Source of the DNA: Kordiimonas sp. SCSIO 12603
GTDB taxonomy: Bacteria > Pseudomonadota > Alphaproteobacteria > Sphingomonadales > Kordiimonadaceae
DNA length: 64,000 nucleotides
Direction: 5' to 3'
Assembly (NCBI RefSeq): GCF_024398035.1
Contig: NZ_CP073748.1
Location: 1,158,001-1,222,000 of the forward strand
Position 1 is the stretch's first letter. Each line of letters opens with the position of its first letter. Below the pieces are notes generated by a model, which searched no databases, had not been told where the DNA came from, and worked only from the letters and a program-made list of their open reading frames with translations. The translations under genes were made by a program, and so were the position numbers. Of the stretch, positions 7,919 through 61,342 are shown in pieces.

Positions 7919-7953
7919 TAAAAAAGGTACCGAGTTTCTCGGTGCCTTTTTTT
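7919..7953 (+). terminator. Rho-independent terminator of rpmE
   Basis: AAGGTACCGAG and CTCGGTGCCTT pair around a TTT loop (one G-U pair) and are followed by seven Ts. This is a textbook intrinsic terminator 25 bases after the rpmE stop. Confidence 0.88.
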
Positions 7954-7980: not shown

Positions 7981-8009
7981 CTTGTAAGCTCAAAATCGCA
8001 TACCTACAT
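7981..8009 (+). promoter_or_regulatory. Heat-shock (sigma-32, RpoH) type promoter
   Basis: CTTG at 7981-7984 and CCTACAT at 8003-8009 are separated by 18 bases. The alphaproteobacterial RpoH consensus is CTTG, 17-18 bases, CYTATNT; only one position of the -10 box differs. Transcription would start near 8015 and produce a leader of about 95 bases in front of the small heat-shock gene. Confidence 0.65.
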
Positions 8010-8017
8010 GAAGTTTA

Positions 8018-8108
8018 CCGGTCGCCGTATAGCGGGGCTGGATAGTTTTAAAGGCCTGACCATGATGGTGGGCGTTAACCAACTTGTCGCTTCATATAGG
8101 AGGACTAG
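8018..8108 (+). promoter_or_regulatory. ROSE-like RNA thermometer in the hsp20 leader
   Basis: Three consecutive hairpins can be drawn by hand: 8018-8041, 8054-8073 and 8083-8108. The last covers the Shine-Dalgarno AGGAGGA (8098-8104). In it GTC-CTTC (8086-8093, with G8089 bulged) pairs with GGAGGAC (8099-8105) around an ATATA loop. Bases 8087-8091 read TCGCT, matching the ROSE signature U(U/C)GCU facing AGGA with a bulged G. ROSE elements repress small heat-shock genes at low temperature by hiding the ribosome site. The layout and downstream gene fit; folding has not been computed. Confidence 0.72.
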
Positions 8109-8110
8109 AC

Positions 8111-8569
8111 ATGCGTAATTTTGACCTTTCTCCATTAATGCGTTCCAGCATTGGATTTGACCATTTATCCCGTCTTGTAGATTCCGCTTTATCCAGCGAA
8201 AGCAGTGCTGCTTATCCGCCGTATAATATCGAAAAGCTGGATGAGGACGATTACCAGATTACCATGGCTGTTGCCGGTTTTGCCCCTGATGAACTGAATG
8301 TAGTTATCCAGGAAGGCACATTATTGATTTCCGGTGCGGCTAAAGAAGATACCGGAGACCGCAAATATTTGCATCGCGGTATAGCAAAGCGCGCTTTTGA
8401 ACGTCGATTTGAGCTCGCAGAAACCATTAAGGTTGGGGATGCCCACTTTGAAAATGGACTGCTGCAGATTGATCTTAAACGAGTGATCCCTGAGCATAAA
8501 AAACCGCGTAATATCGAAATCAGATCAAGTGAGCCACGCGTGAAAACGCTTGAGGCCTCGGATATCTAA
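8111..8569 (+). CDS. Small heat-shock protein, Hsp20/IbpA family
   Basis: 152 residues. A short N-terminal arm (MRNFDLSPLMRSSIGFDHL) typical of IbpA-type proteins is followed by an alpha-crystallin domain at about 33-130 (YNIEKLDEDDYQITMAVAGF, then FENGLLQIDLKR) and a tail containing the NIEI-like anchoring motif. These proteins are ATP-independent holdases that bind unfolding proteins. The ATG at 8111 follows AGGAGG at 6 bases. Expression is probably controlled both by a sigma-32-like promoter and by the ROSE-like hairpins directly upstream. Monocistronic, with a terminator at 8635-8683. Confidence 0.94.
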   Translation: MRNFDLSPLMRSSIGFDHLSRLVDSALSSESSAAYPPYNIEKLDEDDYQITMAVAGFAPDELNVVIQEGTLLISGAAKEDTGDRKYLHRGIAKRAFERRFELAETIKVGDAHFENGLLQIDLKRVIPEHKKPRNIEIRSSEPRVKTLEASDI

Positions 8570-8634: not shown

Positions 8635-8683
8635 GCGGGAACCGACCAATCCTCCCCCGATATGGTCCGTTCCCGCCTTTTTC
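8635..8683 (+). terminator. Terminator of the small heat-shock gene
   Basis: GCGGGAACCGACC (8635-8647) pairs with GGTCCGTTCCCGC (8664-8676) with a single mismatch, followed by CTTTTTCG. Long stem, clear T run; it lies 65 bases after the stop codon and just before the convergent DUF1192 gene. Confidence 0.82.
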
Positions 8684-59902: not shown

Positions 59903-61342
59903 ATGAATAAACTCACGGAAAAACCAATCTATAATGACGAGATCGTAAAGAAATTTACGCTCGCCACTGTTTTTTGGGGTGTCGTTGGCTTCGCGGTCGG
60001 GGTATTTATCGCGTTGCAAATGGCGTTCCCGGAACTAAACTTCGGTGAATATTTCACCTTCGGTCGCTTGCGTCCGCTCCATACTTCAGCTGTGATTTTT
60101 GCATTCGGTGGTAACGCACTGTTCGCAACCAGCTACTTCTCAGTTCAGCGTACTTGCCGTACGCGGTTGTGGGGTGATGGTTTTGCAAACTTTACTTTCT
60201 GGGGATACCAGTTCTTTATCGTCTTAGCGGCTGTTGGTTATGTAACAGGTGTTACACAGGGTAAAGAATATGCTGAACCTGAGTGGTATGCCGATCTATG
60301 GCTAACCATTGTTTGGGTTGTGTATCTGGTTGTGTTCCTGATGACCCTGAAGAACCGCGAAGAAGCACACATTTATGTGGGTAACTGGTTCTTCCTGTCG
60401 TTCATTGTAACAGTGGCGGTTCTGCACCTTGCGAACAACGCAGTGATCCCTGTGTCTTTCACAAGTGTGAAAAGCTACCCACTATGGGGCGGTGTGCAGT
60501 CTGCACTTATCCAGTGGTGGTACGGCCATAACGCTGTGGGCTTCTTCCTGACAGCTGGTTTCCTGGGTATTATGTATTATTTCGTACCAAAGCGTGCTGA
60601 GCGTCCGGTATATTCTTACCGTCTGTCTATTCTGCACTTCTGGTCGTTGATTTTCATCTATATCTGGGCTGGTCCTCACCACCTTCACTACACATCTCTT
60701 CCAGATTGGGCGCAAACACTGGGCGCAACATTCTCTATCATGCTTTGGATGCCTTCATGGGGCGGCATGGTAAACGGTATGATGACCCTTTCTGGTGCCT
60801 GGCATAAGCTACGTGAAGATCCTGTACTTCGTTTCATGATCATTTCACTTGCTTTCTACGGTATGAGCACATTTGAAGGCCCACTGATGTCTATCAAAAC
60901 AGTGAATGCCCTCAGCCACTATACTGACTGGACTATTGGTCACGTACACTCCGGTGCGCTTGGTTGGGTTGCTTTCATCAGCTTCGGTGCCCTTTACCAC
61001 TTGGTTCCGGTTCTCTGGAAACGCGAAGGTCTTTATTCACTCAAGCTTGTGAATATGCATCTGTGGATCGCGACAATCGGTATCGTGCTTTATATCGCAG
61101 CAATGTGGGTATCCGGCATCATGCAAGGCCTGATGTGGCGCACATACGACGATATGGGCTTCCTTGAGTACAGCTTTGTAGAATCTGTGATGGCTATGCA
61201 TCCATTCTATCTGATCCGTGCACTGGGCGGCATCCTGTTCCTCGTTGGCGCACTGATCATGGTTTACAACTTCTACAAAACAATCAAAGGCGACAGAACT
61301 GAAGAAAGTGAATCTCGCTTTAAGGAGGTAGCTCATGCTTAA
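59903..61342 (+). CDS. ccoN: cbb3-type cytochrome c oxidase subunit I (CcoN/FixN)
   Basis: 479 residues, twelve membrane helices. Heme and copper ligands are visible: His in [40 protein letters not shown], and [12 protein letters not shown]. It reduces oxygen to water with high affinity at low oxygen and pumps protons. AGGGAAGAGG site upstream. It overlaps ccoO by 8 bases, so translation is coupled. Confidence 0.97.

Follow-up and report, generated by a model that had tools for sequence, protein, structure and literature searches.

A probable ROSE-type RNA thermometer in the leader of a Kordiimonas small heat-shock gene

Introduction

Does the leader of a small heat-shock gene in Kordiimonas hold back translation until the cell warms, as ROSE elements do? 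The question is raised by the hsp20 locus of the window, by which we mean the whole 64,000-nucleotide stretch of DNA that was analysed. In the accessible text of PMC3669281, the sequence U(U/C)GCU set against the Shine-Dalgarno sequence is named as a major ROSE characteristic, and both sigma-32 control and thermoregulation are reported for ibpA of Pseudomonas. A 2014 review (PMC4166951, accessible part) describes ROSE elements as always associated with small heat-shock genes.

Results

An hsp20 gene behind a heat-shock-type promoter

The locus comprises the following features, all on the + strand.

7920..7952, +, intrinsic terminator of the upstream gene (15-pair stem followed by a T run)
7981..7984, +, -35 box CTTG of an RpoH-type promoter (read directly; pattern also found in relatives)
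8003..8009, +, -10 box CCTACAT, 18 bases after CTTG (read directly)
8018..8041, +, hairpin I with bulged G8024 (folds; two-sided change in 7 of 10 pairs)
8054..8073, +, hairpin II with bulged G8058 (folds; two-sided change in 6 of 7 pairs)
8083..8108, +, hairpin III, proposed thermosensor over the Shine-Dalgarno sequence (folds; two-sided change in 2 of 6 pairs)
8087..8091, +, ROSE motif U(U/C)GCU, here UCGCU, with bulged G8089 (read directly, folds)
8098..8104, +, Shine-Dalgarno sequence AGGAGGA (read directly, folds)
8111..8569, +, hsp20 gene for an IbpA-type small heat-shock protein of 152 amino acids (Pfam and NCBIfam matches)
8635..8682, +, likely hsp20 terminator with 14-base arms, one mismatch and a T run (by eye)

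The product of 8111-8569 matches Pfam HSP20 (E 1.9e-19), and its best NCBIfam model is IbpA, at 171.2 bits and thus below the cut-off of 212. In the search of relatives, the protein was 99% identical to its counterpart in K. laminariae 5E331; because of such relatives, the window was placed in a Kordiimonas genome. In the homologues, the alignment begins at ATG 8111. Translation from a TTG at 8084 would add nine codons, running across the thermometer hairpin, to the hsp20 frame. The gene upstream of the terminator at 7920-7952 presumably encodes ribosomal protein L31 (rpmE). The terminator scan allows loops of 3-8 only, and the structure at 8635-8682 is absent from its output.

The CTTG-N18-CCTACAT promoter proposed in the first-pass annotation is present at 7981-8009, and the pattern recurs in 28 of 30 related hsp20 leaders compared to 54 of 3000 shuffles. 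The spacer measures 17 or 18 in 25 of these 28. The RpoH1 promoter consensus of S. meliloti, as quoted in the accessible part of PMC4843759, is CTTGAA-N15-16-CCTATAT; read as CTTGTA-N16-CCTACAT, the Kordiimonas promoter has the spacing of this S. meliloti consensus and shares 11 of its 13 letters. By analogy with the ROSE families, hsp20 would be under RpoH control, with transcription probably starting near 8015-8017.

The leader folds into three hairpins

About 100 bases separate CCTACAT from AGGAGGA, after which the gene begins. Folding of 8010-8125 and 8015-8125 at 20-45 °C kept hairpins I, II and III at every temperature. The three hairpins drawn by hand in the first-pass annotation, the last hiding AGGAGGA, were thus recovered by computed folds and also by RNAalifold, and the hairpin that covers the Shine-Dalgarno sequence was present throughout the temperature range. 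In the fold, hairpin III contains the pairs G8086-C8105, U8087-A8104, C8088-G8103, C8090-G8102, U8091-A8101, U8092-G8100 and C8093-G8099, and G8089 is bulged. TCGCT therefore faces AGGA just as had been drawn. Hairpins I and II likewise have a single bulged G on the 5' strand (8024 and 8058), and each of these is preserved in 90% or more of the 28 aligned leaders.

According to the accessible parts of PMC3669281 and PMC4166951, ROSE elements lie in the 5' UTR of a small heat-shock gene, form two to four hairpins, the last with the Shine-Dalgarno sequence, and pair U(U/C)GCU imperfectly with the latter. In Kordiimonas, ATG 8111 of hsp20 stands directly downstream of the leader, folds and covariation give the hairpins with the Shine-Dalgarno sequence in the last, and UCGCU occupies the position of the motif.

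The hairpins are conserved by compensatory change

We searched 59 genomes including the window's own, found an hsp20 match in 58 and read the leaders of 49, namely loci L001-L030 plus 19 stretches belonging to other families of the order. By the grouping of the genome tool, 28 of L001-L030 belong to the window's family (own leader included) and two to other families of the order. The alignment A1 contains 28 of the 30; L002, near-identical to L001, and L027, an odd leader, were dropped.

All 30 leaders carry UYGCU followed by AGG or GGA within the last 45 bases, compared to 169 of 3000 shuffles, and a like motif stands directly before the gene in 19 of the 19 further stretches, which were read without a shuffle control. 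Folded on their own, the last 45 bases give a minimum-energy structure with a bulged-G YYGC hairpin in 25 of 30 leaders versus 1 of 1500 shuffles; the five leaders lacking the exact hairpin count against the reading. RNAalifold found the three hairpins with their bulged G unaided in the 28 aligned leaders. Among 23 consensus pairs in A1, 15 showed two-sided change, and 96.4% of cells were paired compared to 36-54% for slid partners. None of 500 shuffles matched the alignment on any of five measures; these counts ignore kinship and are therefore not probabilities. A further point on the other side is that two-sided change falls mostly in hairpins I and II (13 of 17 pairs); in hairpin III, it affects 2 of 6 pairs.

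Genome-wide, the bare motif stands ahead of an ATG 91 times, and the backwards pattern 36 times. As the motif is this common, we discarded the motif alone as evidence and relied on its conservation. A second bare-motif site in the window (61315-61337) sits at the junction of two genes, which we take to be ccoN and ccoO, and was regarded as chance.

The leader stands between two Rfam families

The ROSE families of Rfam, to which the first-pass annotation had pointed, did not claim the locus: neither ROSE nor ROSE_2 nor any other family reached its gathering score in the window. ROSE_2 (RF01832, E. coli ibpA) gave 16.9 bits on the leader against a cut-off of 65 (E 0.47), in register and with hairpin II inside the weak match. 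The likeness extends to the Hsp20/IbpA gene, the CTTG before the leader, UYGCU near the Shine-Dalgarno sequence and a hairpin that falls in register with the CCUGUCCAUgaUGGAAGG hairpin of ROSE_2. ROSE (RF00435, the rhizobial hspA type, cut-off 45 bits) resembles the leader in its several hairpins and in the ROSE motif before hsp20, but has no match in the Kordiimonas genome. The ROSE-like elements of Pseudomonas ibpA, as described in the accessible part of PMC3669281, share U(U/C)GCU set against the Shine-Dalgarno sequence, a sigma-32-type promoter and a small heat-shock gene, but have two hairpins where the Kordiimonas leader has three.

Controls revealed that the Rfam models work but are narrow. 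ROSE_2 exceeded its cut-off at 3 of 20 loci (Citrobacter, Salmonella, Escherichia) and RF00435 at all five plasmid loci of rhizobia and relatives. At its cut-off, RF00435 found nothing in 142 sampled alphaproteobacterial genomes or in 14 control genomes; on 19 order relatives plus the second hsp20 of the window's own genome, it matched 5 of 20 at E<=10, with 23-30 bits compared to the required 45. Rfam gave no match at 17 of 20 hsp20 loci of one set, nor at any of 20 loci made up of 15 hsp20 loci of the family or order, four clpB loci and one second hsp20. The missed cut-offs are a reservation about the ROSE reading; as Rfam misses these loci as well, we treat them as a failure of database membership and not as evidence against the mechanism.

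Two covariance models of our own reached further. R2 was built from 32 hsp20/ibpA leaders, none labelled as belonging to the window's family (alignment A4). Taken from a set of 73 other named leaders, these 32 comprise 21 from alphaproteobacteria (most of them labelled as Rhodobacterales) and 11 from gammaproteobacteria, and include three Rfam ROSE_2 members as well as L071, labelled only Alphaproteobacteria; L040 and L042 (labelled Sphingomonas) stayed outside A4. The RNAalifold structure of R2 is the Shine-Dalgarno hairpin alone, with one unpaired base at the motif G. R2 matched 8011-8113 with E 7.3e-9 in the window and with E 4.4e-7 over the 3.85-Mb genome, where it was the sole significant site (next match E 2.5). 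At E<=0.1, it also detected 26 of 29 additional leaders from the family and order; all five Rfam ROSE loci were found weakly (E 6e-4 to 0.012, two of them only partly).

R1, built from the 28 relatives' leaders, detected 66 of these 73 named leaders at E<=1 (2.7e-19 to 0.027), among them L086, L105 and L107 at the places of Rfam ROSE_2 (3 of 3). It also detected four of five Rfam ROSE loci, and 15 of 19 order relatives plus the left-out L027. The UYGCU motif is present in all 73 of these named hsp20/ibpA leaders. The search of the named leaders also returned 17 places just 3' of the first gene in gammaproteobacterial loci, and three elsewhere. The 17 (L058, L060, L082, L086, L090, L094-L096, L098, L100, L103-L107, L109, L110) lie at about 1910-2084, 3' of ibpA; in L107, a second hsp20 gene begins at the R1 match downstream of ibpA.

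Judged by sequence, the Kordiimonas leader is ROSE-type by every descriptive feature tested and stands between the two Rfam families, formally in neither. Because the relatives' model finds members of both, and RF00435 at its cut-off none in the 142 alphaproteobacterial genomes, this suggests that each of the two families covers a narrow end of a single continuum.

A proposed switch and its rivals

Together, the conserved parts, the compensatory changes and the kinship with the leaders of Rfam ROSE and ROSE_2 make it very probable that the leader at 8010-8110 is a ROSE-type RNA thermometer. The first-pass claim of a sigma-32-type promoter joined to a ROSE-type element agrees with the sequence tests, that is, with architecture, compensatory changes and the covariance model. 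By analogy with the ROSE families, the leader would repress hsp20 at low temperature and melt on warming. In the proposed mechanism, the heat-shock sigma factor RpoH would start hsp20 transcription at the CTTG-N18-CCTACAT promoter. As long as the cell is at growth temperature, hairpins I and II would fold stably, and hairpin III, with its G bulged out, would hold the AGGA of the ribosome-binding site paired to UCGCU and so keep protein output low. Heat would open hairpin III, the weaker one, and let ribosomes bind.

In the B. japonicum ROSE element, the bulged G of the motif is reportedly needed, and removal of the corresponding G reportedly locks the site. In silico loss of G8089 likewise locked the Kordiimonas site, with an unpaired fraction of 0.00-0.02 at 15-55 °C versus 0.12-0.43 for the natural leader. 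Nearest-neighbour folding of the natural leader predicted a slight opening, from 0.15 unpaired at 25 °C to 0.26 at 45 °C, which counts against the thermometer reading. The same calculation gave a similarly slight opening for three other outside leaders (L105 0.02 to 0.06, L050 0.11 to 0.20, L039 0.00 to 0.05), and in it the ibpA leader of Escherichia, L107, did not melt (0.52 to 0.40). Given this behaviour of the Escherichia leader, we did not use melting curves as proof.

The strongest rival to the thermometer holds that the leader chiefly serves to bind Hsp20 itself, with free chaperone blocking translation as in E. coli IbpA. Aggregates would draw Hsp20 off and free the mRNA, and temperature would act through protein damage and not through RNA melting. 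In the accessible part of PMC10474464, self-repression of E. coli IbpA via the 5' UTR needs Y34, R93, R97 and K98, a K98R protein still represses itself, and R93 is common in alphaproteobacterial IbpAs. The Kordiimonas Hsp20 carries Y35, R94, R98 and R99 at these positions, so that each of the residues Y34, R93, R97 and K or R98 has its counterpart. However, the leaders share the pairing of ROSE motif and Shine-Dalgarno sequence, which a mere protein site would not demand. Moreover, both thermometer and feedback have been reported in E. coli, which makes feedback more a complement than an exclusion. As the main function of the leader, we consider it unlikely; as a serious complement, it may add to RNA gating on the same leader, given the conserved self-repression residues. 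The earlier reading is supported in its thermometer and its promoter; it had left self-feedback of Hsp20 unconsidered.

Far less plausible is that the hairpins merely stabilise the mRNA or are a relic, and that induction is purely transcriptional via RpoH. The well-conserved heat-shock-type promoter could be enough for induction, but a hairpin over the ribosome-binding site is the consensus in the family, in the order and in outside leaders, and the presence of the motif in 30 of 30, 19 of 19 and 73 of 73 leaders argues against a relic or stabiliser. That hairpin and motif arose by chance in a random leader is scarcely credible, for in our view covariation, the outside model and the shuffles refute it, whatever the 91 bare motifs of the genome might suggest.

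Further matches and a structured clpB leader

The second, divergent hsp20 of the same genome has a leader (L171:805-925) with CTTG, a hairpin and AUUCGCUCGCAAGGGGAAU before the ATG; it was detected, also as L130, by none of R1, R2 and Rfam. A third R1 match in the genome (E 0.015) falls where two reading frames meet, and we attributed it to chance. Further R1 matches from 118 genomes led to nine fetched regions, eight of which were read; the unread one, L276, is a clpB leader. L277 and L278 are hsp20 leaders, and L270-L274 (E 3e-6 to 0.012) end at no heat-shock gene and look like chance, for which reason an R1 E-value near 1e-5 does not count by itself. L275:86-202, from a family relative, matched with E 0.004 and contains a hairpin-I-like GGUCGCC...GCGGGACC; neither hsp20 nor clpB was seen after it.

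The clpB leader of the genome lies as follows.

contig 889579-889712 (L169:580-713), own clpB leader with heat-shock promoter pattern, bulged-G hairpin and covariation in relatives

R1 matched it with E 7.7e-6. A CCAAUCGCUUC...GAAGGAUUGG hairpin holds the ROSE motif, and a 9-codon frame AUGGGG...UGA overlaps the clpB start. We collected 30 clpB leaders including this one and aligned 24 of them in A2 and 21 in A5. The promoter pattern recurs in 23 of 30 leaders versus 23 of 3000 shuffles. The first hairpin, which has a bulged base, showed two-sided change in 8 of 10 pairs. The second, with a bulged-G YYGC, was found in 22 of 27 CAUGGG-bearing leaders compared to 7 of 1350 shuffles. In 21 of the 30 leaders, 90.1% of its cells were paired and 39 were two-sided versus 12.8 in shuffles; the count of two-sided pairs was reached by 13 of 500 shuffles. 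R1 also matched the clpB leaders of five more genomes (G008, G009, G016, G021 and G028, E 1.8e-8 to 0.047). None of the remaining clpB leaders appeared at E 0.05 among 118 genomes searched under stricter filters, under which the window's own clpB leader was lost too. The case for clpB therefore rests on recurrence at the same place and on covariation, and not on the E-value.

From these data, it is possible, if doubtful, that the ROSE principle in the window's family extends to clpB, with a hairpin whose bulged-G YYGCY motif faces a purine-rich AGG/GGG strand and which would gate translation. Warming would open the motif hairpin and free translation, either via the GGGGU ribosome site or via the leader mini-frame. 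Several observations count against this. R2 detected none of seven clpB loci, the strict UYGCU-AGG/GGA pattern occurs in 9 of 30 clpB leaders (47 of 3000 shuffles), the family clpB leader L226 lacks CAUGGGG, and in many rows the sequence opposite the motif makes a weak ribosome site.

In 20 of 24 leaders, the mini-frame AUGGGG... terminates no more than a few bases from the clpB start, and its stop is partly forced by clpB codons. The mini-frame is poorly kept: MGLxTHEY appears in 8 of 24 rows, the frame stops after three codons in L222, L224 and L225, and it has no stop within the bases read in L210, L214, L217 and L220. The second hairpin could thus gate a mini-frame coupled to clpB, gate the clpB ribosome site, or only shape the leader. 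All 24 rows, each from the window's family, carry CAUGGGGU...CACAUG. Here CAUGGGGU may be no more than the ribosome site of clpB, placed in a start hairpin; this hairpin gives no evidence, as 6 of its 7 pairs never vary.

Beyond the order's relatives, 29 class-level clpB loci were fetched and 28 leaders read by eye only. By eye, L243, L255 and L260 from other alphaproteobacteria have a G+C-rich CCGC...GGGG near the start, and structured clpB leaders may be more widely spread. Among the papers found on clpB with ROSE or RNA thermometers, or on Kordiimonas, none described such a clpB leader in its title or the start of its abstract.

Significance

If the reading of the hsp20 leader is right, ROSE thermometers reach the marine genus Kordiimonas and its family, with a leader that Rfam misses. 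The relatives' covariance model makes a wider ROSE survey possible. A ROSE-like element on Pseudomonas rhlA is an exception to the rule that these elements accompany small heat-shock genes only. Should the clpB leader respond to temperature, it would be the first ROSE-type switch known to us on a chaperone gene outside the small heat-shock genes, and one RNA switch would set the timing of disaggregase and holdase chaperones alike.
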